A stretch of 64,000 bases of DNA from Pseudothauera rhizosphaerae (GTDB lineage Bacteria > Pseudomonadota > Gammaproteobacteria > Burkholderiales > Rhodocyclaceae), in assembly GCF_004801305.1 (NCBI RefSeq), contig NZ_SSOD01000002.1, positions 310,001 to 374,000 of the forward strand, written 5' to 3'. Position 1 is the stretch's first letter, and every line of letters begins with the position of its first letter. The translations under genes and the position numbers were made by a program. This document shows, in pieces, positions 49,209-63,851 of this stretch. Under the pieces are notes generated by a model, which saw nothing but the letters and a program-made list of their open reading frames with translations, was not told where the DNA came from and searched no databases.

Positions 49209-49988
49209 CTACAACCCCAACAACTGCTTGACCGCCGCCCACTGCCGGCGGCTCACCGGCAGGCGTTCGGGCACGCCGGCGAGCAGCACCTGCCAGTGGC
49301 CTTCGCCGCCTTCCTCGTCCGCGTCAGCCGCCCGTTCCACGCCCTGCAGCGCGGCGCGCGCCACCAGGCTGTTGCGGTGGATGCGCAGGAAGCGCCCGCC
49401 GAATTCCTGTTCCAGTTGCACCAGGGATTCGTCCAGCAGGTATTCCCGCTCCACGGTGCGCGCGGTGACGTACTTCTGCTCCGCCTTCAGGTAGAGCACG
49501 GCCTCCACCGGCACCAGCAGGATGCGCCCGCGTTCGCTCACGCTGAAGTGCCGGCGCACGCCCGGCGCCAGCGCCGCCAGGGCCGCATCGGCCGGCGCCA
49601 GGTGGCGGCGCGCCTTGCCGAGCGCATCGGCGAGGCGTTCCGCCCGCACCGGCTTGAGCAGGTAGTCCGCCGCGGCCAGTTCGAAGGCCTGCACCGCGTA
49701 CTGGTCGTAGGCGGTGGTGAAGATCACGGCGGGCGCCTGCGGCAGGCGGCGCAGGTGGCGGGCCAGCTCCACGCCGTCCATGACCGGCATGCGGATGTCG
49801 GCCAGCACCACGTCCACGGGCGCCGCTTCCAGCAGGCGCAAGGCTTCCACGCCGTTGGCGGCGAGGCCGGCGACCTCGGTGGGCTGGGTCGCGGCGATGT
49901 CGCCGAGCAGGTCGCGCAGGCGGCTGCGGGCCGGCGCCTCGTCGTCCACGATCAGCACGCGCAGGGTTCTGGTGACCGTATCGTTCAT
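49209..49988 (-). CDS. LytTR-family response regulator, AlgR-like
   Basis: 259 aa. The receiver domain (about 8-130) has Asp15/Asp16, phospho-acceptor Asp64 and the switch Lys; a LytTR DNA-binding domain fills about 155-255 (KYVTARTVEREYLLDESLVQLE, RIHRNSLV). The adjacent LytS-type kinase, argH and hemC nearby reproduce the Pseudomonas argH-algZ-algR-hemC neighbourhood, so I call it AlgR-like. In Pseudomonas AlgR controls the fimU-pilVWXY1Y2E minor-pilin operon; a comparable operon lies 5 kb away here. Its start overlaps the kinase stop by 4 bases. Confidence 0.9.
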   Translation of the reverse strand: MNDTVTRTLRVLIVDDEAPARSRLRDLLGDIAATQPTEVAGLAANGVEALRLLEAAPVDVVLADIRMPVMDGVELARHLRRLPQAPAVIFTTAYDQYAVQAFELAAADYLLKPVRAERLADALGKARRHLAPADAALAALAPGVRRHFSVSERGRILLVPVEAVLYLKAEQKYVTARTVEREYLLDESLVQLEQEFGGRFLRIHRNSLVARAALQGVERAADADEEGGEGHWQVLLAGVPERLPVSRRQWAAVKQLLGL

Positions 49989-51010
49989 GCGGGTGCACTC
50001 CGGTAGGGCATGCGGATGCGCACCCGGTAGCGGCCCTCGCGCCGCTCGCTCTCCAGCCCCGCCTCCAGGTCGAAGAACAGCATCAGCCGTTCGCGCAGGT
50101 TATCCAGCGCCATGCGGTTGCCTTCGTGATGCGAAAGATCGCGGGACACCGGGTTTTCCACCTCGATGCGCAGTTCTTCGCCGCGGCGGTACAACTGCAC
50201 CCGTATCTCGCCCGCTTCGGCCAGGGGTTCGATGCCGTGATACACCGCGTTCTCCAGCAGGGGTTGCAACAGCAGCGGCGGCACCAGAGCGTCGCGCGGG
50301 CAGTGCTCGGCCTGCCAGCGCACCTGCAGGCGCTCGCCCAGACGCAGGCGTTCCAAGTCCAGGTAGCGCTCGCACAGGGCGAGTTCGGTATCCAGACGCA
50401 CCAGCTCCCGGTTCTCGCGCATCAGCACGCGGAAGAGGTCGGCCAGTTCCTCCAGGGCGCGCTCGGCGCGGCGCGGGTCGGAGCGGATCACGCCGAGCAC
50501 GGCATTGAGGCTGTTGAACAGGAAATGCGGGCGGATGCGGGCGGTAAGCGCCATCAGCCGCGCTTCGGAGAGAGCCCGCGAGAGCCGGCGGTTGCGGTAG
50601 TCGAAATACAACAGGCCGAGCACGCCAGCCACCGCCGCCCACAACAGCCAGCGCTGCAGGCCGACGCCGCCGAAACCTCCAAAGCCGCCCGCGAGCCAGT
50701 ACGCGGCGGCCGCGACGGCCAGCACGGCGGCCATGACCAGCACCATGCCGACCCGCCGCGACCGGCGCGCGAGCCAGGGCTGGACCAGGTAGAGCAGCAG
50801 GGCCACGGCCAGCAGCGGCAGTTCCACGCGCCCGGCCAGGGCGATGAACTGCAGCATGAAGCCGTCGAAGCTGTCCGCCTGCACCAGTGCGGTGGCCACC
50901 ACCAGCACATTCACCAGCAGGAGCAGGCGCAGCAGCACGCCCAGATTGCGGAAATCGGGCAGTCCGCCGGGCGGCAAGGGAGGCTGGGCCTTTTGCTTTA
51001 TACTTTGCAT
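49985..51010 (-). CDS. LytS-type sensor histidine kinase, AlgZ/FimS-like
   Basis: 341 aa. Four membrane helices (about 23-43, 52-75, 88-106 and 120-136) precede the His_kinase domain with His162 in [10 protein letters not shown] and the N-box [14 protein letters not shown]. The catalytic ATPase domain looks short, and clear G-boxes of a HATPase are not obvious beyond NLRERL; Pseudomonas FimS/AlgZ is likewise an unorthodox kinase. Partner of the downstream LytTR regulator. Divergent from argH with 79 bases between. Confidence 0.87.
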
Positions 51011-53434: not shown

Positions 53435-53546
53435 GCCGCGGCACTGCGCGCTAGCGCGTCGGAATACTTTACACATTATTTCCGCACGCCCCAGAACCAC
53501 CCCCAGACAGCGCGCAATGCACTGTTATATATCGACATTCTCCATC

Positions 53547-53562
53547 CGGCATCGATATTGCT
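53547..53562 (+). promoter_or_regulatory. candidate sigma54 -24/-12 promoter of the HPr-rel-A leader gene
   Basis: CGGCAT-CGATA-TTGCT: the GG at -24 and GC at -12 have the exact 12-base register of sigma54 promoters (TGGCAC-N5-TTGCA), with mismatches only at the first and sixth positions and the last. It ends 99 bases before the ATG in the 227-base gap after the fructosamine kinase gene. No activator site was recognised. Confidence 0.4.
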
Positions 53563-53661
53563 TCGATCAGACACAACGCGCCCCGTCCGTGCATTGGTTC
53601 ACGGCACGGCCGCCATGGCACACCTAACATCTACCGCAGGCATTTGGCAGGACGAATCGCC

Positions 53662-54375
53662 ATGACCCCCGACCAGGATCACCGCGCCGCTGAAACACCC
53701 CCGACGCACGACGTCTCCGGCCTGCGCCGCCGACTGCTGCGCGGCGGGCTGTCGTCGGCACCGCTGCTGCTCACCCTGACCAGCCGGCCGGTACTGGCGA
53801 CCTACTGCACCTGCCCCTCCGCAGCCCTGTCCGGAACGGCGAGCCACAAGGAAGAAGACAAGCCCAAGTGCTGGGGATACTCCCATAAAAAGTGGAAACA
53901 CTCCGCCAAGGAAGAAATCGATCACCGCAAGAAACTGTGGTACAGCCAGCATGGCGGCAAGGACAAGTCCCCCGGTCATGGGCATGACGACGACGATGAC
54001 GACATCAGCAAGTACGGCCCGTTCACCAGTTGGCCGATCCCGCTGACCGATCCGTTCCACAATTACTTTCCGCAAGGGTCGCACGGCCGCTACTTCAAGT
54101 CCGGCCAGCAGGGCTGGAAGCCGCTCTCCCTGTTCGAAGTCATGGATCTGCCCGGACACGCCGACCCGTCCGAGATCGGCGCCCATTTCGTCAGCGTCCT
54201 GCTCAACATCCGCACCGGCCTGGTCGACCCGCGCGCGATGACCGAACAGAGCCTCAAGGCGCTGTGGTCCGAATACGCCCAGAAGGGCTACTACAAGCCC
54301 CACGCCGGCGCCAACCCCTGGTACGCGGCCGACATCGTCGCGTACTTCGAACGGACGGGGCTCTCGTCCTATTGA
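53662..54375 (+). CDS. Tat-like secreted protein of the HPr-rel-A neighbourhood, function unknown
   Basis: 237 aa. The N-terminus has a twin-arginine-type RRRLLRGG (22-29), a hydrophobic stretch and a cleavage-like VLA at 44-46, followed by CTCPSA with Cys49 and Cys51 and a third Cys70. The middle is lysine/histidine-rich with a six-Asp run (109-114), a possible metal-binding segment. The C-terminal part has the pattern DPSEIGAHFVSVLLNIRTG...LWSEYAQKGYYKPHAG...ADIVAYF, which I recall from many unnamed proteins with similar Tat-like leaders, and ends GLSSY. The stop overlaps the next start (TTGA). I cannot name the function. Confidence 0.85.
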   Translation: MTPDQDHRAAETPPTHDVSGLRRRLLRGGLSSAPLLLTLTSRPVLATYCTCPSAALSGTASHKEEDKPKCWGYSHKKWKHSAKEEIDHRKKLWYSQHGGKDKSPGHGHDDDDDDISKYGPFTSWPIPLTDPFHNYFPQGSHGRYFKSGQQGWKPLSLFEVMDLPGHADPSEIGAHFVSVLLNIRTGLVDPRAMTEQSLKALWSEYAQKGYYKPHAGANPWYAADIVAYFERTGLSSY

Positions 54376-54629
54376 ACGGCCCTTCCGCCCCGCAGCCCCA
54401 CCTGCTCGAAGCCGTCTGGGAAGACGGGGCGGCGCTCTATGACCGCCGCTCGGGCGACACCCACCTCCTCGACACCTTCACCCTCGCCGTCCTGCATGCA
54501 GCGCGTGCCGTCGGCGCCGACCCCGCGGCCATCCACGCCCGCCTCGCCGATTCCGGCAACCCGCAGGAATACGAACTTTCCCGGATAGAATCGGCGCTGG
54601 ACCAGTTGATGGCCGCCCACCTACTTTAG
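54372..54629 (+). CDS. PqqD-like peptide chaperone, HPr-rel-A system type
   Basis: 85 aa. The ALYDRRSGDTHLLDTFTLAVLHAA core is the PqqD_rel_X pattern (small PqqD-like proteins that occur only with HprK-related kinase A). PqqD-like domains are RiPP recognition elements that hold peptide leaders. I start it at TTG 54372, which overlaps the stop of the preceding gene as TTGA; there is no ATG in a sensible place. In other genomes its kinase and nucleotidyltransferase partners are adjacent; here they lie 7 kb away, beyond the pilus operon. Confidence 0.8.
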   Translation: MNGPSAPQPHLLEAVWEDGAALYDRRSGDTHLLDTFTLAVLHAARAVGADPAAIHARLADSGNPQEYELSRIESALDQLMAAHLL

Positions 54630-54929
54630 GGTACGCTCCCTGCTCCTTGGTGGTCGCACACACTCTGCCGCGGCCGTATGACCACGGCCCGACCGCGGCA
54701 AGGCCCTCCCCCCTCCTCGTACCGCAGGCATAGCATCGCAGCCCTGCCCTGCCCTGCGCGTACCGTCCCGTTTGTGGCATGGTCTCCATCCGGTTTCCAT
54801 TCGACACAGACAGGCATAATTGCCGGCCGGATCCTGACACCCAGGACCCGCAAACCGCTCATCGGCCGAATTCAGTCTTTCATCGCCGGCGTCTTGAGCC
54901 TCCCGCCCACTCCGCATAGTGTCCAACCC
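54630..54929 (+). promoter_or_regulatory. 300-base gap before the pilus operon, with an AlgR-like site
   Basis: No gene is supported here. CCCGTTTGTG at 54767-54776 matches 8 of 10 bases of the Pseudomonas AlgR consensus (CCCGTTCGTC). A -10-like CATAAT lies at 54815-54820, with a poor -35 candidate TTTCCA at 54794-54799 and a short 15-base spacer. The transcript start would be about 100 bases before fimT. I see no terminator for the preceding two genes. Confidence 0.35.
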
Positions 54930-55409
54930 ATGAAAAAGACACGTGGTTTCACCATCATCGAACTGATGCTCACCGTCGCGGTGCTCGCGGTGCTGCTCGG
55001 CATCGGTATTCCGAGCTTCCGGAACCTGATCCAGAACAACCGCGCCACGGCCATCGCCAACGACATCGTGGGCACGCTGCAAACTGCCCGCTCTGAGGCC
55101 ATCAAGCGCAGGAGCCCCATCACCGTCTGCCGCCGCAATGCCGCCGGCAGCGCTTGCGAAAACGGCACGAACTGGGCGGCTGGCTGGCTCATGCTGCAGG
55201 GAGCCACCGTACTGAAGGTCTGGGATGCCGCAGCCGGCGAGCCGGTCGTTACCGGCCCCGCGGGCGGCATCGTGTTCCAGTCCGACGGCACCGCGAGCGC
55301 AACCGGGGAATTCCAGGTCCAGACCTCCAGCGGCAGCACCGCCGTCCAGCGCTGCGTCGGCGTCGCCGGCCTAGGACGTGTCAGCACGAAGACAGGAGCA
55401 TGTTCATGA
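54930..55409 (+). CDS. fimT: GspH/FimT family minor pseudopilin
   Basis: 159 aa. The prepilin peptidase site is G6/F7 in MKKTRGFTIIEL, with Glu at +5 and a hydrophobic helix of about 22 residues. The C-terminal half is the GspH-type beta domain, with four or so cysteines probably forming disulfides (CRR, CENG, CVG, CS). Minor pilins of this kind prime type IV pilus assembly and some bind DNA. First gene of the minor-pilin operon; its 3' end overlaps pilV by 4 bases. Confidence 0.9.
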   Translation: MKKTRGFTIIELMLTVAVLAVLLGIGIPSFRNLIQNNRATAIANDIVGTLQTARSEAIKRRSPITVCRRNAAGSACENGTNWAAGWLMLQGATVLKVWDAAAGEPVVTGPAGGIVFQSDGTASATGEFQVQTSSGSTAVQRCVGVAGLGRVSTKTGACS

Positions 55410-55855
55410 CCCTCCTCGCTTTCAAGCACCAGCAAGGCACCTCGCTCCTCGAAATCCTTGTTGCCGTGGTCATCCTCAGCGTTGGCCTGCTCGGTGTGGC
55501 CGGTCTGCAATTAACCAGCCTGCAGAGCGGGTACAGCGCCTATCAACGTTCCCAGGCCACCTGGCTCGCCAACGATCTCGCCGACCGCATGCAGGCGCAG
55601 AGCCTCACCGCTTGCACGGTATATGACGATGGCAGCAGCGACACTAAGCGCACAGAATGGAACACCCTCCTCACCGACCTGCTCGGCGCCGATGCGGAAG
55701 GCTTCGTGGGTGTCTGCGACAGCGACGGCAACGTCACGATCTTCGTCGAATGGACCGACGCCCGCGGCAACATCAAGGCGGGTGGTGAGACGGACGCGGG
55801 CGACCAGGAAAACAGGCAAATCTTTGAATTTCGCACCCGGCTTGGCAGATCATGA
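55406..55855 (+). CDS. pilV: type IV pilus minor pilin PilV
   Basis: 149 aa. Prepilin motif G/TSLLEILVAVVILSVGLLG near residue 11, with Glu at +5. The family feature LQSGYSAYQRSQATWLANDLADRM follows. I chose ATG 55406 because AGGAG lies 7 bases upstream; ATG 55400 is in frame but too close to it. Overlaps fimT and pilW (ATGA-type), as usual in this operon. Confidence 0.9.
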   Translation: MTLLAFKHQQGTSLLEILVAVVILSVGLLGVAGLQLTSLQSGYSAYQRSQATWLANDLADRMQAQSLTACTVYDDGSSDTKRTEWNTLLTDLLGADAEGFVGVCDSDGNVTIFVEWTDARGNIKAGGETDAGDQENRQIFEFRTRLGRS

Positions 55856-57048
55856 AAACACCCTCCACCCAGCGCGGGCTCACCCTGGTCGAACTGCTGG
55901 TCGCCATGGCGGTCGGCCTGATACTGATCGCCGGCGTCATCACCATCTTCCTCGGCAGCAAGCAGAGCTACCGCACCAGCGAAGCCCTGTCCCGCGTCCA
56001 GGAAAGCGGGCGCTTCGCCCTGGAATTCATGGCCCGCGACCTGCGCGCGGCCGGCTACAGCCCGGCACGGGAATTCGGCTGCACGCGCCTGGGGCAGGAA
56101 GCCGAGCAGGAAGTCGAACCGGGCGACCTTCACGAAGGCCGGCTGCGTGTAGCGCTCACCGACCCCAGCGCCATCGGCGAGGGCCAAACTGCCAACCCCG
56201 ATGCCACGGCAAACTGGAATGCCGTGTTCTCCCCCGAAACCGTCCCCTCCGTATACAGCGAAGGCGAAGGCACGGCCCCTGCCGGCCGGCTCCGGGGAGA
56301 CTGGGTCACCGCCCAGACCTTCTCCCCCCGGGGCGGGCCCATGCGGGTTCTCGACAGCGACACGTCATCCGGTCTGACCCTGGATGTGGAAATCGCCCCC
56401 GATGCGGAACCGGACACGGGTGAAACCATGGTGATCATCGAGGAAAACTGCACGCGGGGCGTCGTGCTGGAGCTCTGCGGCATCTCCGAAATTGCGGGAG
56501 GCGGCGGGGAAGAGGGTGAAACAGGCGGCGGAGACGATGACGGCCCTACCGCTACCCACCGGCTCAGTTTCGCAGATTGCAACGCCGGACACATAGATTC
56601 GAGCAACCGCAACGACTTCATCAAAGCCCACCCGATGAATTTCGAGGATGCCGGCGTGCTGCGCGTGTCCGGTGCGGCGTTTCCCGTCACCTACTACATC
56701 GGCACAGGCGCCGGCGGCGAGCCCGCCCTTTTCCGCAGGGCTGGCACCCAAGCCGCACAGGAACTCGTGGAGGGGGTCGAGAATATGCGCCTCCTATACA
56801 GCCTGAGAAGCGCAGGCAACCCCCGCCAGGCCGACGGCAACTTCGTCGACGCCAGCGCCAGTTCCGTAGCAGGCAACTGGGAAAACGTGGTCGCCGTGCG
56901 CGTCGAACTGCTGGTGCGCAGTGCGGAAACTAACGTGGTTCCCGAAGTGCAATCCGTCACCTTCGGCGGCGCGCCCGTAAACACCGACGACCGCCGCCTG
57001 CGCCAAGTCTTCACCTCCACCATCGCCCTCAGGAACCGCCTGCTATGA
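55852..57048 (+). CDS. pilW: PilW family minor pilin
   Basis: 398 aa. Prepilin site in QRGLTLVELLVAMAVGLIL, Glu at +5. The GSKQSYRTSEALSRVQESGRFALEFMARDLRAAGY stretch is the PilW hallmark. A glycine/acidic low-complexity loop (about 212-226) interrupts the C-terminal domain. PilW, PilV, PilX and FimT form the tip complex with PilY1. Overlaps pilX by 4 bases. Confidence 0.9.
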   Translation: MKTPSTQRGLTLVELLVAMAVGLILIAGVITIFLGSKQSYRTSEALSRVQESGRFALEFMARDLRAAGYSPAREFGCTRLGQEAEQEVEPGDLHEGRLRVALTDPSAIGEGQTANPDATANWNAVFSPETVPSVYSEGEGTAPAGRLRGDWVTAQTFSPRGGPMRVLDSDTSSGLTLDVEIAPDAEPDTGETMVIIEENCTRGVVLELCGISEIAGGGGEEGETGGGDDDGPTATHRLSFADCNAGHIDSSNRNDFIKAHPMNFEDAGVLRVSGAAFPVTYYIGTGAGGEPALFRRAGTQAAQELVEGVENMRLLYSLRSAGNPRQADGNFVDASASSVAGNWENVVAVRVELLVRSAETNVVPEVQSVTFGGAPVNTDDRRLRQVFTSTIALRNRLL

Positions 57049-57653
57049 ACGCCGCCACCGCCCTCCGCCCACCGGCGCATGCGCCTTCCGGCCAGCGCGG
57101 CGCCGTCCTGGTCGTCTCCCTTATCATGCTGGTGGTGCTCACCATCCTGGGTGTCGCCAGCATGCGCAGCACCATCCTCGAAGAGCGCATGGCCGGCAAC
57201 GTCAAGGAGCAATACCGCGCCTTTCACACCGGAGAACTGGCCGTGCGCACCGCGGAAGCCGCCATCCGGAACGATACCGGGACGGCCCAGGACTCATGGA
57301 ACTGCACCGATGCCGTGATCGGCAGCCTTACTGACTTCGAAGAGCTTACCGACGGGGAAAATAGTAGCGAGATTCCCCCCCGCTATTCCTCCCGCTATTG
57401 CGGCCCCAAGGAATCACCTTACGTCAAGCTGGTATGCAATACCTACACCGAGACCACGGAGGTGGCGGGGGAGGAAGTCAGCACCGAAATCACCGATTGC
57501 GAGCCTTTTACGCCCAGGGACCAAACCGTCATAGATTCCGGCAGTGCCCCCTCCATTAAAGTGGAAAGCTATGCGGTTCTGGGCGTGGGCCGCATTCCCG
57601 GCAATGCCGAATCCGCCCTCGTCACGTCCTACAATAACGGGTTCACCGAATAA
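57045..57653 (+). CDS. pilX: PilX-type minor pilin
   Basis: 202 aa. The N-terminal QRGAVLVVSLIMLVVLTILGV with no Glu at +5, followed by MRSTILEERMAGN, matches the PilX_N pattern, where the usual Glu is absent. Cysteines around 86-135 may pair. 63 bases separate it from pilY1. Confidence 0.88.
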   Translation: MNAATALRPPAHAPSGQRGAVLVVSLIMLVVLTILGVASMRSTILEERMAGNVKEQYRAFHTGELAVRTAEAAIRNDTGTAQDSWNCTDAVIGSLTDFEELTDGENSSEIPPRYSSRYCGPKESPYVKLVCNTYTETTEVAGEEVSTEITDCEPFTPRDQTVIDSGSAPSIKVESYAVLGVGRIPGNAESALVTSYNNGFTE

Positions 57654-57716
57654 GCAAAGCACATCATGCGGATGCCCCGCAGGGCCTCGCCCGCCCGGCA
57701 CCGCAGGAGGAAGAAA

Positions 57717-60700
57717 ATGAAGTACGCGTCGCTCATGCCCGCCCCCATCCGTTCCCCCAAGCGCCGCATCCCGTGCCGGCCGGGCCTTCTTTCCCTAATC
57801 GCCACCGCCATCGTCATGGGAGGCAGCACTTGGCCCACGGCGGCACTCGCCCAGGTCATGGCCGAAGACATTTCCCAGGCACCGTTGTACGTCAGCAGCC
57901 AGGTCGAACCAAACATCATGTTTATTCTTGATGACTCGGGATCGATGCACTATGAAATTACTCCAGATGATTATCGCGCTGCGGGGAGAACCAACGGTGA
58001 CGTACGGTTCGTTTTCCCAAGACCGGCTGGTGTTTATGGCGGAAGCGATTATGCAAACACCGTTTCCACTGTTGACGACAATGCTGCTTACAATGCGCTG
58101 ACACGCTCTCCTCAAGTAAATAAGACATACTACAACCCCAGCGTTACCTATACGCCCTGGGCCAAGCACGATGGCTCACTCTACCCGTCTGCAAGCGCAT
58201 CCTGCGCGCCGCACAATCCAGAAAACACGGGTAGCTGCCCAAGTGGGGGCACGAGTGTAAACGCTTACGCCCGCAACCTTACCGTCAACAACTCCAACTA
58301 TCAGTCTCCAAGTTGGCGTACTTGCACATCAGCAACATCCTGCTCCTCTACAACCAACAGCAAAACATTCTGGCCTGCTACCTACTTCTGGCACAACGGG
58401 GGAAGCGTTTGGAGCTGGAGTAATTACACCAAAGTCGAGATCAAATCGACGACTCCCAACTACTCCGGCCACGGTCGCGAGAACCGCTCCGACTGCACTG
58501 GAGGAGTATGCACGTATGCCCAAGAGATACAGAATTTTGCGAACTGGTACACCTATTACCGCTCGCGCGTTCTCGCGGCACGGGCGGGCATAGGCCGGGC
58601 GTTTGCCCAGCAGGGCGAAAGCATGCGAGTGGGATATGGCGCCATCAACAAGGCATCCTCCTCCGTCGATGGTGTCAATACATCAACCATTGTTCGCGGA
58701 GTTCGTCCATTCACAGGGGCTGACCGCGAAGCATTCTTCACTGAACTGTATGGGCGCACTATCCCGAATGCGGGGACACCCTTGCGTGGAGCCCTGGACG
58801 ATGCCGGAAAATATTTCTCTCGAACGGATAACCGTGGGCCTTGGGGGGCCGTACCGGGGAACAATAATTCATCTCCTCATTTAGAGTGCCGCCAGAGCTT
58901 CACCATTCTGATGACTGACGGGTATTACTCGGATGGCCCCAGCAGCGTTACGGGAAACATTGACGATACCGCCGGGCCTATTATTACAGCGCCGGATGGC
59001 TCTACATATCAATACACTGCAGCGGACCCATATAAGGATGAATACAGCGGCACGCTAGCGGATATCGCCATGTATTACTGGAGAACGGATCTGCGCTCAG
59101 ATCTCGCGAACCGGGTGCCGACGGGCCTGCAGAATCCGGCCTTCTGGCAGCACATGGTTACGTTTGGTGTTGGGTTTGGCGTGACCGGATCAGTCGACGA
59201 AAGCGATGCCTGGGCTGCAGTCGAAAGTGGCAGCTCAATCAATTGGCCGGACCCTGCAGATAGCAATCCGGCCAAACTCGATGACTTGTTACACGCAGGA
59301 ATCAACAGCCGAGGAGGGTTCTTCAGCGCACAGAACCCGGAAGAATTCGCCGCTGGCCTGGGCAACACACTGGCCTCCATCGTCAGCAGAGCACGCTCCT
59401 CTGTGAACCGCATGGCCACCAGTTCCGTGTTCCTGAACACTGGCTCCCGGGTGTACCAAGCCAGTTTCGACAGCAGCGACTGGAGCGGCCGGCTGGTGTC
59501 CTACCTGCCGGAGGAAGACGGCGACGGTGCGCTCGATATCGATGCGGACTGGGACGCCGCCAGCGAACTCCCCGCACCGGCGAGCCGCAACATTCTGAGC
59601 CACGCCGGCGGCGCAGGAAACGGCCGCGGAATCACCTTCACCTGGGCCAGTGGCGGACTGACGGACGATCAAAAGGCCCTGCTTGGCAGCGCGGCCGTGC
59701 TCAACTACCTGCGCGGCGACCGGACAGGGGAAGGCACAACCTACCGCACCCGCGGCTCCGTGTTGGGCGACATCATCAACTCCGACCCCGTATACGTCCA
59801 CCAGCAGAACCTGGGCTACAACACCCTTTCCGGCACTGAAGGCAGCAGCTACCGCAACTTCGTGCAGACCACCAAAGCCACCCGCGCCCCGGTGGTCTAC
59901 GTGGGCGCCAACGACGGCATGCTGCATGCCTTCCACGCGGAAGAAGGCACCGAACTTTTCGCTTACGTGCCCAACGCCGTATATCCCAATCTAGCCGCCC
60001 TGGCCGATCCCCAATACACGCACCACTATTACGTGGATGGCGGCATCACCGTGACCGACGCCTACTTCGGCGGCGGCTGGAAGACCGTGCTGGTCGGCTC
60101 CCTCGGAGCCGGTGGCAACTCGATCTACGCCCTGGACGTCACCAACCCGGGCAGCATGACGGCCAGCAAGGTGCTATGGGAATTCACCGACGCGGACATG
60201 GGCTACACCTTCGGCCGGCCGCTGGTGGCCCGCCTGCAGAACGGCGCATGGGCGGCGATCTTCGGCAACGGCTACGGTAGCGCCAGCGGCAAGGCGGTGC
60301 TCTATGTCGTGAACCTGGCCGACGGCAGCCTCATCTCCAAGGTGGAAACCGGGGTCGCGGGCAACAACGGCCTGTCCGGGCCGACGGGCTACAACACCAC
60401 CGACCGCAGCAACCTGCACGCCCTGGGCTTCTATGCCGGCGATCTGCTGGGCAACCTGTGGAAGTTCACCATGGACGGCACTTGCGCCACCGGGGCAGGC
60501 AACTGCAACTGGAAGGTGGCCTATGGCTCCGGCACTAATCTGCCGCTTTTTACGGCCCGCAACGCCAGCGGCCAGGTCCAGCCCATTACGGTAACCCCCG
60601 CCCTGCGGGTGCACCAGAAGGGCGGCTATATGGTGCTGTTCGGCACCGGCCGCTTCTTCGCCGCTGGCGACGCAGAGGATCGTAGCGTACAAAGCGTCTA

Positions 60701-61238
60701 TGGCATCTGGGACAAACTCCAAGCAATTGCTGAGACCGACCGCAGCACCCTACAGCAACAGACCATCACCCACCAGGTAATCATCGATGATTTCAACGCC
60801 CGCGCCATCAGCAACAGCAGGGTGGACTGGAGCTCCAAGCGCGGCTGGTATCTGGACCTCGTCCCGCCGGCCATTGCGCCGGCAACGGCTGGAGTCGCCG
60901 AAGGCGAGCGCGTCATTCGCGCCCCGGAAGTCTGGTTCGAACGCCTGCGCGTAAGTACCTACGTGCCCAGCAGCGATCCGTGCTCGGCAACCGGCTATTC
61001 CTGGTACATGGAAATCGACCTGCGCACCGGGGGACGCCTTGATTACCCGGTATTCGGCCCGCCCATGTACATCCCCGGCACCAACATCCCGGTCAGCGGC
61101 ATCGCCGTTCCCGGCGGTGTGCCGGCCACCATCGGGGACTATCTGATCACTGACCCCGAGCAGAACGAGTGGACCGGCTACGACTCCGGGCTGGACGAAG
61201 AGGACGAGGGCCGCCAAAGCTGGCGTGCTGCCCAATGA
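57717..61238 (+). CDS. pilY1: PilC/PilY1 type IV pilus tip adhesin
   Basis: 1173 aa. A signal peptide (about 22-46) is followed by a von Willebrand A-like region with MIDAS motif DDSGSM (72-77), then a calcium-loop-like DGDGALDID segment (about 601-609), and the PilY1 beta-propeller domain in the C-terminal half ([33 protein letters not shown]). PilY1 caps pili, controls retraction and mediates adhesion. Start ATG 57717 has AGGAGG upstream. The first 520 codons are visibly poorer in G+C than the rest of the gene and window: 23/60 at 57901-57960 and 27/60 at 58081-58140, against 40/60 at 59461-59520. Confidence 0.93.
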
Positions 61239-61270
61239 TGCGAACGCATGGTATTCACAGAGGCAAGCCG

Positions 61271-61684
61271 ATGAACATCGCACACAGGACCCAACGCGGG
61301 TTCACCCTGATCGAACTGATGATTGTCGTGGCGGTCATCGGCCTGCTGGCCTCGATTGCCTACCCCTCGTACCAGGACCACGTCCGCAAGGCCCGCCGCG
61401 CAGACGCGCAGGCGGCCCTGATGGAACTGGCGCAGTTCATGGAGCGTTGGTATACGACCAATGGAACCTACCAAGACGGTGCCAACATGCCCACCCTGCC
61501 TTTTACACGCTCCCCCAAGGACGGAGGCGCAGCGTTCTACAACATCGCCGTGGCCGGCAATGCGACCACTTTCACCCTGACCGCCGCACCCACCGGTCCG
61601 ATGTCTGGCGACACATGCGGCAACCTGACCCTTGCCCATACGGGTGCCAAAGGTGCCAGTGGAGACTCCTGCTGGCGACGCTGA
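61271..61684 (+). CDS. pilE: PilE-like type IV minor pilin
   Basis: 137 aa. Prepilin site in [23 protein letters not shown], Glu at +5, then [29 protein letters not shown] and a C-terminal disulfide pair (Cys in GDTCGN and DSCWRR). The short length and operon position match the PilE that ends minor-pilin operons, rather than the major pilin. Starts 32 bases after pilY1 and is followed by an extragenic palindrome. Confidence 0.9.
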
Positions 61685-61692
61685 CCTTCCGC

Positions 61693-61722
61693 CCGTAGGG
61701 TGCGCTAAGGCACAACCTACGG
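61693..61722. repeat. GTAGGGTGCG-type extragenic palindrome after pilE
   Basis: CCGTAGG (61693-61699) pairs with CCTACGG (61716-61722), with an inner GTGC/GCAC stem. It starts 8 bases after the pilE stop and could end the pilus transcript. A single copy in the window, of a sequence type that is often repeated in proteobacterial genomes. Confidence 0.5.
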
Positions 61723-61818
61723 AACCCGGGCTGCAAGACCCGGACAACCGTCCACGGACCGCGTCACAGTTCCGCGGCGCATCCCGGGCCCTTGCGCATA
61801 ATCGGCGGCACGCCCCCC

Positions 61819-62763
61819 ATGCAGACGGCTTGCTTTCCGATGGCGCATTCCCCCTTCGTTCCTCTTGCTACGCTGCCCGCACGCACGCTCGCCGACTGGC
61901 TGGCGCAGGGGCGGCTGGCCTTACGCACCGGTCCGCTCACCTTCCGCATCGCCTGCGGCGAAGGTATCGTCGCGGACAATTTGCGCCTGCTGTATGGTCA
62001 CCACGCCGTAGCAGACAGCCCGCCGTTCGCCGATTTCCACATCGAGGTCGCCCGCCCTGTCGCGCTGCGCCGATGGGTGCGCCCGCAGGTCGAGTTCCGC
62101 CTCGACGGCTACGCTCCTTTCCTTTCGCTGCCCGCGGCGCAGGCTTTCGCAATGATGGAATGGGGCATGAACTGGTGCGTCGCCAGCCACTGCCACCAGT
62201 ATCTGCTGCTCCACGCGGCGGTCCTAGCACGCGGTGACGACGCGGTACTGCTGCCGGCACCGCCGGGGTCGGGAAAGAGCACGCTGTGCGCTTATCTCAG
62301 CCATCGCGGCTGGCGTCTGCTGTCGGACGAACTGGCGCTCATCGTTCCCGGTGAAGGCCGGGTATATGGGCTTGTGCGTCCGATCAGCCTCAAGAACGAC
62401 GCCATCGAGGTCATCCGGCGCACCTTGCCCGAAAGCACAATCGGTCCCCCTGTGCGGGATACGAAGAAAGGGGTCGTCACACACCTTGCCCCGCCGCCGG
62501 GCTCGGTGGACGAATCAGACCGACCGGCACTGTTGCGCTGGATCGTCACGCCGCGCTACCGGGCCGGCAGCACGCTGCACGCCGAGCGGATTCCCCGGCC
62601 CGAGGCCATGGCCATGCTGATCGACAATGCCTTCAACTACGACGTGCTGGGCGAGACGGCGTTTTCCACCCTGACTACCCTGCTGGGCCGAGGACCCGCC
62701 TTCGACCTGCACTACGCGCAGTTCGACGACGCCCTGCGCTGGTTCAATGCCCTCGAAGCATGA
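61819..62763 (+). CDS. HprK-related kinase A (HPr-rel-A system)
   Basis: 314 aa if started at ATG 61819; ATG 61840 (MAHSPFVPLATLP) fits the family start slightly better, and neither has a good ribosome binding site. A -10-like CATAAT at 61796-61801 could make it the start of a new transcript. The P-loop APPGSGKS (147-154), LLSDELALI (168-176) and RPISLKN (188-194) are the marks of HprK-related kinases. No HPr partner is expected; the substrate is unknown. The stop overlaps the nucleotidyltransferase start (ATGA). The matching PqqD-like protein is upstream of the pilus operon. Confidence 0.88.
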   Translation: MQTACFPMAHSPFVPLATLPARTLADWLAQGRLALRTGPLTFRIACGEGIVADNLRLLYGHHAVADSPPFADFHIEVARPVALRRWVRPQVEFRLDGYAPFLSLPAAQAFAMMEWGMNWCVASHCHQYLLLHAAVLARGDDAVLLPAPPGSGKSTLCAYLSHRGWRLLSDELALIVPGEGRVYGLVRPISLKNDAIEVIRRTLPESTIGPPVRDTKKGVVTHLAPPPGSVDESDRPALLRWIVTPRYRAGSTLHAERIPRPEAMAMLIDNAFNYDVLGETAFSTLTTLLGRGPAFDLHYAQFDDALRWFNALEA

Positions 62764-63851
62764 GCACGAGCGCTGCTCGGAACTGGCCACCTGACCGCCT
62801 GGCCTCGCTGCTGAACGAGCCGGATCGGCTCACCGAGCTCAGTGAGGGCGGCTGGGACACGCTGCTCCGTCTCGCGAGGCGCGCCAATGTCATGGGCAGA
62901 CTCGCGTTCGCTACGCGTGGCCTGCCCGAGAAAGCCCTGCCGGCCCCCTGTCGTCCCCACGTCACGGCGGCCCTCGCCCTGGCCGACCGCCAGGCCCATG
63001 CCGTCCAGTGGGAAATCGGATGCCTGCGTGCGGCGCTGGACGAAATCGGCGTTCCGCTGGTACTGCTCAAGGGTGCTGCCTATCTGGCTGCCGACCTTCC
63101 CTTTGCACGCGGACGTTTCTTTTCGGACGTAGACATCCTTGTTCCGCGCACGCGCATCGACGAAGTGGAATCCGTCCTGCTCAAACACGGCTGGGCCGGC
63201 ACCCACCACGACGCCTACGACCAGCGCTACTACCGACAATGGATGCACGAACTGCCGCCCATGCGCCATCTGCGCCGTGGGACCGTGGTGGACGTGCACC
63301 ACCGCATCCTTCCGCTCACGGCACGCTTCGACCCCGATCCCGCGACCATGCTCGAACGGGCCATGCCGGTAGCGGACGACGAAGGCGTCTTCGTCCTCTC
63401 ACCCACGGACATGCTGCTGCACAGCGCCACTCATTTGTTCCACGAAGGCGAATTGCCGAATGGTTTCCGCGATCTGCTGGACCTGGACGGGCTGTTTCGC
63501 CACTTCGGCGCCGCTCGGCCGGATTTCGCCGCCGAACTCGATGCACGCGCCCACACCCTGCACCTGGAAGCGCCTCTGGCCTTTGCCCGTCACCAGTGCA
63601 TCCGCCTGCTGAAAACCCCAGGTATCGCACCCAGCCGGAACGGGCACGTCAACCGGCTCAGCGATGCCCTGTACGATCACGCCCTGCGACCGCAGCATCC
63701 CCTGCTCGACAGCCCCGGTAGCGGATTCGCCCGCTGGCTGTTATACGTCCGCGCCCACTGGCTGCGCATGCCACCTCACCTGCTGGCCTGGCATCTTACC
63801 CACAAGGCCGTAGGCAGGTTCAGAGGGCAGCCAGCGGAGAATGACGTATGA
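62760..63851 (+). CDS. nucleotidyltransferase family protein (PF14907 type), HPr-rel-A partner
   Basis: 363 aa. A nucleotidyltransferase core is seen in LLKGAAYL (102-109), FSDVD (121-125, metal-ligand Asp123 and Asp125) and VDVHH (177-181, third Asp178). This is the 'uncharacterised nucleotidyltransferase' family that accompanies PqqD-like and HprK-like proteins in HPr-rel-A loci and in some lasso-peptide clusters, where it adds nucleotide-derived groups to a phosphorylated peptide. Coupled to the kinase gene by a 4-base overlap. Confidence 0.87.
   Translation: MSTSAARNWPPDRLASLLNEPDRLTELSEGGWDTLLRLARRANVMGRLAFATRGLPEKALPAPCRPHVTAALALADRQAHAVQWEIGCLRAALDEIGVPLVLLKGAAYLAADLPFARGRFFSDVDILVPRTRIDEVESVLLKHGWAGTHHDAYDQRYYRQWMHELPPMRHLRRGTVVDVHHRILPLTARFDPDPATMLERAMPVADDEGVFVLSPTDMLLHSATHLFHEGELPNGFRDLLDLDGLFRHFGAARPDFAAELDARAHTLHLEAPLAFARHQCIRLLKTPGIAPSRNGHVNRLSDALYDHALRPQHPLLDSPGSGFARWLLYVRAHWLRMPPHLLAWHLTHKAVGRFRGQPAENDV

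Follow-up and report, generated by a model that had tools for sequence, protein, structure and literature searches.

The HPr-rel-A cassette of Pseudothauera rhizosphaerae as a candidate modification and export system for a secreted leader protein

In the linear polyphosphorylated peptide (LPP) clusters of Bacillota (lppA-B-K-N), the peptide is reported to be phosphorylated at Ser3 by the kinase LppK, and the cluster also encodes a recognition element of ribosomally synthesised and post-translationally modified peptides (RRE; RiPP for the peptides) and a nucleoside triphosphate (NTP) transferase; such clusters often lie in capsule or polysaccharide loci, and the biological roles of their phosphopeptides are stated there to be unknown (PMC13381572). 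In pseudomycoidin, phosphoserine is reported to receive one or two hexoses by way of PsmN, whether by this protein itself or with the help of a host enzyme (PMC9266682). Haft et al. (2006) described, 5′ of proteobacterial PEP-CTERM genes, a motif of 17 nt with TTTACA at its end, followed by a spacer of 32–92 nt and a −24/−12 site, and named PrsR as the predicted activator (PMC1569441). Here we analysed 64,000 nucleotides of Pseudothauera rhizosphaerae (contig NZ_SSOD01000002.1, positions 310,001 to 374,000; G000:C2:310001-374000), hereafter the window, which carry an HPr-rel-A cassette consisting of a kinase (hprK), a PqqD-like protein (pqqD), a nucleotidyltransferase-like protein (ntp5) and a secreted protein with a two-arginine (RR) leader (tatL). 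An earlier note on this DNA regarded the biochemical role of such systems as undescribed, and an open literature search on the HPr-rel-A family names likewise found no described role.

We propose that this cassette probably constitutes a one-substrate protein-modification and export system serving an exopolysaccharide (EPS) matrix of the XrtA/PEP-CTERM type, such slimy matrices being produced by many bacteria of water and sludge. The source genome has 4.6 Mb and is 99.9% complete. NCBIfam and Pfam scans recovered the genes between 53662 and 63851 in the order that the earlier note had read from the letters, and both family assignments made there held at the curated cut-offs: the region 61819–62760 matched TIGR04352 (HprK_rel_A) with 354.6 bits (cut-off 200), and 54372–54626 matched TIGR04353 (PqqD_rel_X) with 48.9 bits (cut-off 35). 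The region 62760–63848 matched NTP_transf_5 (PF14907; E 2e-55), and all six genes between pqqD and hprK matched pilin or PilY1 models. A profile search of the whole genome with TIGR04352 and TIGR04353 gave a single match to each, at this locus, and thus no second complete cassette. The start of hprK was revised, as comparison with congeners favours the ATG at 61840 over 61819.

The cassette was surveyed in 199 genomes of the family, 82 of them with an HprK_rel_A kinase, and in 300 genomes of the order, 50 of them with the kinase above cut-off. A set of 110 loci comprised as much as 20 kb of DNA around each match (L004, L035–L083, L102–L161), with 17 of the 82 family cassette genomes lying outside it; a second set of 80 loci, the best 80 of at least 500, was taken from GTDB contigs. 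The two sets (190 loci together) draw partly on the same genomes; L105 and L162, for example, are one genome. The order tatL-pqqD-hprK-ntp5 was found in 85 of the 110 loci and in 75 of the best 80 of at least 500. Among the deviating loci of these two sets, tatL was not detectable in 11 and 0, pqqD in 7 and 2, and both in 1 and 1, respectively, while tatL lay 3′ of ntp5 in 5 and 2, and tatL-pqqD followed ntp5 in 1 and 0. Where pqqD was matched, 99 of 102 loci had no more than 300 nt between it and hprK (75 of 77 in the best 80 of at least 500). As to larger gaps, the 660–684 nt of L105/L162 result from a wrong-frame pqqD match, the DNA of L105 showing direct contact; in L081 pqqD is located downstream of ntp5, and L229 of the second set has a gap of 380 nt.

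The Tat-like gene, which the earlier note had listed with the system, proved to be a near-constant member of the cassette across the 190 loci and no bystander. Relatives of TatL occurred in 177 of them, some recognised by the leader alone with profiles grown from the window protein, and in 12 of the 13 loci without a hidden Markov model (HMM) match an RR-leader protein with another cargo was read by eye upstream. TatL is thus a true fourth part of the cassette: a secreted protein with a conserved RR leader and an interchangeable cargo. The constant leader can be written approximately as RRR-[KL]-L-x-K-G-x-A-A-x-P-V-[IL]-x-T-L-x-S-x-x-x-L-[AG]; in one tabulation of the TatL proteins, 30 of 177 sequences lacking the leader pattern were set aside. 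Cargo of type I, to which the window protein belongs, opens with C-x2-P-S-[GA]-x2-S-G-N, and cargos of types II and III are short proteins, some ending in SCWNS or bearing GGIMISAAAYTSL; between several lineages no cargo similarity was detected while the leader is conserved. An alignment of 46 type I proteins, selected by score and with a mean column identity of 18%, showed R22, R23 and S57 to be invariant and S41, C49, S53, W124 and N182 to be conserved at 90% or more. The AlphaFold model of TatL has a disordered stretch of residues 1–60, comprising the leader and a serine tail, followed by a domain (61–237) predicted with confidence save for approximately 101–120. The leader model gave one strong match in each of 12 cassette genomes, with a second, marginal match in two, none in four cassette-less genomes, and no additional substrate in its own genome. 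No Pfam or NCBIfam family matched the window protein; for the 46 aligned sequences, Pfam gave 0 and NCBIfam one weak match (PraA, E 0.0044). Both databases contain PEP-CTERM models, and none of these matched any of the 46 proteins at E ≤0.01.

Structure prediction suggests how the leader may be recognised. The predicted model of PqqD (pLDDT 90.5) appears to show the β-β-β-α-α-α fold of leader-bound RREs, and its seven top structural entries were RREs or RRE-bearing RiPP enzymes. The lasso-peptide B1 RREs 6jx3_B and 5v1u_A matched with Z 9.0 and a root-mean-square deviation (rmsd) of 3.0–3.2 over 76 residues, followed by a sactipeptide-enzyme RRE and heterocyclase RREs, as against Z 5.5 and an rmsd of 11.0 for PqqD itself (3g2b); the best Foldseek E value was 0.009. 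By sequence, 15 of 28 cassette PqqD proteins matched Pfam PqqD at E ≤0.1, and lasso RREs appeared in the profile search weakly (E 0.23 and 0.94); designed helical repeats at the top of that search were set aside as composition artefacts. The cassette PqqD is hence predicted to fold like leader-binding RREs. In HprK, the P-loop GxGKxT and the following DE (G150, G152, K153, T155, D170, E171) are invariant in 35 sequences, the acidic pair D170/E171 being in our assumption catalytic. The K-G-A motif, D123-x-D125 and D178 of NTP5 are invariant in 28 PF14907 sequences; we take these residues to represent the pol-beta nucleotidyltransferase motif, and they appear compatible with an active nucleotidyltransferase.

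The DNA upstream of tatL carries the promoter arrangement of PEP-CTERM genes. After dropping 6 of 177 loci without usable upstream DNA or RR pattern, the module of PEP-CTERM box and sigma-54 site was found in 73 of 171 upstream regions, a count which includes duplicates between the locus sets, as compared with a mean of 0.05 and a maximum of 1 in 20 shuffles preserving base composition alone, and with at most 16 of 171 for permuted hexamers. The GTCGG preceding TTTACA, unused in selection, was likewise conserved (G 73, T 73, C 71, G 64 and G 45 of 73). With identical regions removed, GTCGG-N4-6-TTTACA occurred in 45 of 176 tatL upstream regions; all loci together, searched on both strands (7.75 Mb), contained 76 such boxes, those of tatL included. 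In the window two boxes were found when one mismatch was allowed (0.39 expected by chance), and the tatL box lies 73 nt ahead of the −24/−12 site. Judged by this succession of box and sigma-54 site 5′ of the gene, the window tatL would belong to the PrsR regulon.

The gene neighbourhood and the distribution of the cassette point to the same setting. Two types of neighbourhood recur. One is the argH...hemA region, as in the window, with a HemA-like gene in 39 of the 110 stretches, and the other consists of PEP-CTERM/XrtA EPS loci with PrsT-like proteins in 23 and PrsR-like proteins in 16 of the 110, the cluster representatives of which were named PrsT, PrsR and TIGR03013 sugar transferase. At scores below the curated cut-offs, the PrsR model matched 199 of 199 genomes and that of the EPS glycosyltransferase stp2 (TIGR03088) 80 of 80; since these models match nearly everything there, counts were restricted to matches above cut-off. 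Within the family, PrsR was present in 80 of 82 cassette genomes and in 15 of 117 others (p 3e-37, related genomes not being independent), giving 80 genomes with both, 2 with HprK_rel_A alone, 15 with PrsR alone and 102 with neither, or 31, 0, 5 and 32 when counted by genus. The two genomes with kinase and without PrsR are metagenome-assembled genomes (MAGs) of 82% and 79% completeness, and of the 20 kinase-less genomes in the 12 genera with mixed status, 15 lack PrsR too. XrtA was found in 47 of 50 cassette genomes of the order and in 26 of 250 others. The source genome of the window itself has PrsR on another contig (G000:C10) and XrtA on a third (G000:C6). The association of the cassette with EPS genes and with control by PrsR is well supported.

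As the cassette has the same parts as LPP clusters, and as hexose chemistry is reported for PsmN, we propose by analogy an RRE-guided phosphorylation of TatL followed by glycosylation or nucleotidylation. TatL would be synthesised with its N-terminal RR leader, which would be held by PqqD as by a lasso-type RRE. HprK may then phosphorylate one or more serines in the flexible tail right after the leader, S53 and S57 being the candidates in the window, and NTP5 could subsequently place a hexose or a nucleotidyl group on the phosphate, in the manner reported for PsmN. The modified protein would be exported, probably by the twin-arginine translocation (Tat) pathway, and join the matrix; where PrsR is present, tatL would be switched on by PrsR and sigma-54 along with the PEP-CTERM genes. 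We consider it rather likely that TatL is the modification substrate. The nature of the group added by NTP5 is a guess in which the chances of being right and wrong balance, and export by Tat is likely because the modifications require cytoplasmic ATP or NTP.

A number of observations weigh against this proposal. The modification chemistry itself is something we infer and did not observe. The parts are not universal: a Nitrosospira MAG (L168) has hprK-ntp5 without a tatL or pqqD match, the double-serine motif occurs in 138 of 176 TatL proteins (by a loose pattern, several misses being parsing errors), and a serine stands at +3 in 28 of 47 listed type II/III cargos, some of them misparsed. The full Tat consensus [ST]RRxF is present in just 43 of 176 TatL proteins, and no Tat-signal model matched TatL in the Pfam and NCBIfam scans. 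The TatL fold had no Foldseek match in the PDB and, by VIA-align, one chain at Z 3.2, which is no proof of a new fold; for PqqD, the Z of 9 barely exceeds the level of unrelated models according to the tool's own note. Concerning the promoter, sigma-54 sites alone are no more frequent in the window than expected by chance (29 found, 32 expected, with two mismatches), and the box was found in 0 of 17 regions of the exosortase-poor set. PrsR occurs without the cassette in the 15 family genomes and XrtA without it in the 26 genomes of the order. Outside the order, 19 of 55 cassette genomes contained XrtA, as compared with 5 of 25 controls, which were chosen by us, non-randomly, from genomes with sub-cut-off matches; 36 of the 55 thus lack XrtA, and 29 of these 36 lack any exosortase (7 have one). 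An exosortase as obligate partner, accepted on the family and order data, was rejected because of these last two counts. Among 18 of the 36 genomes that were fetched, a tatL-type leader and pqqD were matched in 17 and ntp5 in 14; the stretches without an ntp5 match are L253, L255, L256 and L259, and L253 shows no tatL or pqqD match either.

The same XrtA-less cassette genomes reveal another companion. Stp2 was found above cut-off in 31 of the 36 and in none of 39 controls chosen in the same non-random way, and in 25 it lies at most 2 kb from hprK. Among the five family and order genomes that lacked PrsR or XrtA it occurred in one. In L249 the cassette is adjoined by stp1, stp2, FemAB and an amidotransferase, and in L256 and L258 by stp2 or an amidotransferase. 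This EPS glycosyltransferase fits as partner of the cassette better than an exosortase. As a separate observation, the XrtA-system amidotransferases (TIGR03108) near the cassette (L249:6481-8520 and L258:11893-13839) also resemble the lasso-cyclase model, with approximately 238 bits where the cut-off is 525; in having an AsnB-like enzyme, both EPS loci are thus similar to lasso clusters.

That TatL is a partner rather than the substrate, with PqqD, HprK and NTP5 modifying a sugar, a lipid carrier or another protein of the EPS locus, and TatL acting as an extracellular receptor or matrix protein under the same control, would explain the nearness of stp2 to hprK as well as the mutual dissimilarity of the cargo types, which share no single modified residue. 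We consider it unlikely, since PqqD is predicted to resemble leader-bound RREs and the leader is precisely the constant part of TatL; moreover, in the LPP system, which has been studied by experiment, it is the precursor that becomes phosphorylated (PMC13381572). Very improbable is a signalling role in which HprK_rel_A would act on an HPr-like protein of the phosphotransferase system and couple carbon supply to EPS production: HPr kinases are indeed the sole PDB relatives of HprK by sequence at E ≤0.01, but the alignment, to 1jb1, is weak and spans the region from the P-loop to DE alone, the genes that constantly accompany it encode an RRE-like protein, a nucleotidyltransferase and a secreted protein, and neither the cassette nor its examined conserved neighbours included a recognisable HPr gene, no HMM search for HPr having been made.

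Two further explanations concern the type IV pilus operon that separates pqqD from hprK in the window by 7196 nt, a departure from the adjacency of HPr-rel-A genes which leaves membership of the proteins untouched, as the models are defined by sequence and only the neighbourhood is atypical. The earlier note had offered insertion of the operon or a functional link to the pilus, to be decided by comparison across Rhodocyclales. The comparison, once run, confirmed that the cassette is contiguous in relatives, and spoke against both a simple foreign insertion and recurrent nesting: among the 102 loci with a pqqD match, the split is unique to the window. The functional link, in which the cassette would modify a pilus tip or minor pilin, has in its favour that 8 of the 110 loci, the window included and all of the same family, have the pil operon close to the cassette; it nevertheless found no support, is highly improbable and was dropped, as nesting does not recur, nearly every cassette has a secreted leader protein of its own, and PilY1 (PF05567, E ≤0.001) does not track the cassette in the family (73 of 82 cassette genomes vs 99 of 117 others, Fisher p 0.41). 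Insertion from elsewhere, for instance by a mobile element, would agree with the block sitting exactly at one gene junction. It is very improbable, because all five other congeners fetched have a similar pil operon near, yet outside, the cassette, with which that of the window aligns piecewise, and because the three junction zones have no exact repeat of at least 10 nt in common, and leftover pqqD or hprK homology did not exceed that of shuffles.

The window gene order is instead an accidental local rearrangement, and the nesting a local curiosity. In congeners the pil operon is found downstream of the cassette on the same strand (L104, L106) or on the opposite strand (L103), or upstream of it, on the far side of argH and of a pair of histidine kinase and response regulator (L102, L105); in two other genera it lies downstream (L146) or upstream (L161), and in L102, L105 and L161 it adjoins that pair. 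The DNA alignment with L146 is unbroken to the last bases of pqqD, and where hprK begins it restarts from the same base of L146 (3717). The gene order is ntp5, fimT to pilE and a retropepsin gene in L146, and fimT to pilE, hprK, ntp5 and the retropepsin gene in the window genome. Alignment and position of the retropepsin gene, a TIGR02281 relative which follows pilE in L146, support that hprK-ntp5 and pil, being adjacent blocks, swapped places. Tandem duplication followed by loss would yield the observed order and is a candidate route. In L102, L104, L105, L106 and L146 a possible TTG start of hprK shares bases with the stop codon of pqqD (TTGA); the rearrangement removed this overlap in the window genome, where hprK-ntp5 may be transcribed by read-through from the pil operon. 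Genome G383 holds two different cassettes (G383:C99, L140, and G383:C22, L146) at 3% contamination, and as the C22 copy resembles the genus of the window, G383 may be a binning mixture.

The features of the locus are compiled in Table 1. Beside them, the last pil gene (61262–61684) matches ComP_DUS (PF16732; E 3e-30), a family of DNA-uptake-sequence receptors. Just past the window, a TIGR02281 clan AA aspartic protease gene (L003:841-1596) overlaps the end of ntp5. At 49209–51010 a LytTR-type response regulator and a histidine kinase are encoded divergently from argH, a pair which presumably resembles algR/fimS of Pseudomonas. The neighbour names argH, hemA, prfA, prmC, grxD and that of a sugar-kinase-like gene are our assumptions for unscanned genes. 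In four MAGs titled Proteobacteria, Hydrogenophilales (two) and Betaproteobacteria (L213, L216, L233, L240) the cassette stands beside hemA-prfA-like genes as well, and the hemA region may hence be a repeated site of the cassette.

Table 1. Features of the HPr-rel-A locus, in positions of the window.
Feature	Position	Strand	Remark
PEP-CTERM box (motif 1, predicted PrsR binding site), GTCGG-N5-TTTACA	53458..53473	+	sole exact match in 64 kb
Sigma-54 −24/−12 promoter-like site, 5′ of tatL	53547..53563	+	12/14 points
tatL, secreted protein with Tat-like RR leader, candidate substrate	53662..54375	+	S53, S57 candidate modified serines
pqqD, PqqD_rel_X (TIGR04353), RRE-type leader-binding adaptor (predicted)	54372..54629	+	start overlaps tatL stop (ATGA)
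fimT-pilV-pilW-pilX-pilY1-pilE, type IV pilus minor-pilin operon	54930..61684	+	inside cassette; neighbour by rearrangement that does not belong to the system
hprK, HprK_rel_A (TIGR04352) kinase	61840..62763	+	revised start; HMM match from 61915
ntp5, PF14907 nucleotidyltransferase-like	62760..63851	+	start overlaps hprK stop (ATGA)

A widespread, named gene pair, the kinase of which occurs in 82 of 199 family genomes, thereby gains a candidate substrate, a logic of leader recognition, a regulator and a biological setting, and HPr-rel-A cassettes a first testable idea of their function. If true, this would join three fields, namely lasso and LPP phosphopeptides, PEP-CTERM/exosortase sorting and floc formation in sludge bacteria; transposon mutants of prsT, epsB2 and prsK are reported there to be floc-deficient, prsK not having been successfully complemented (PMC9850573). 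One can further speculate, at rather poor chances, that HPr-rel-A is a protein-polysaccharide linker, with a Ser-phosphate-hexose on the TatL tail serving as primer or attachment point for XrtA-type exopolysaccharide. Each genome would then have one dedicated glycan-bearing matrix protein, and the LPP and paeninodin clusters in capsule loci of Bacillota would follow the same principle in Gram-positives.

Compared with known systems, the window proteins are members of the HPr-rel-A system (TIGR04352, TIGR04353) by score, here split by the pil operon. The XrtA/PEP-CTERM sorting system with PrsK-PrsR-PrsT (PMC1569441) shares with the cassette the co-occurrence in genomes of family and order, the gene neighbourhood in some genomes and the kind of promoter before tatL; it differs in that TatL has no PEP-CTERM match and that the cassette is also found with EPS genes where an exosortase is missing. 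With the lasso peptides paeninodin and pseudomycoidin (PadeK; PsmK, PsmN) the cassette has the combination of RRE, HprK-like kinase and nucleotidyltransferase in common, whereas no macrolactam cyclase or B2 peptidase was found among the ten genes scanned of the window locus. LPP clusters resemble it in the discrete RRE, the HprK-like kinase, the NTP transferase, a precursor with conserved N-terminus and variable C-terminus, and the frequent placement in polysaccharide loci. In contrast to them, the leader is of an RR/Tat-like kind, residues 1–47 of the window TatL containing neither YxxP nor WxxP, the candidate substrate is a secreted protein that is folded and about 130 to 300 residues long, and the hosts are Gram-negative; an SpI-like peptidase or MsbA-like exporter was not recognised among the neighbour clusters, no HMM search having been aimed at them. 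The HPr-rel-A cassette is thus probably a new variant of modification by RRE, HprK and NTP transferase with a secreted protein as substrate, and its best reading, by analogy, is that of a Gram-negative counterpart of the LPP and paeninodin systems.

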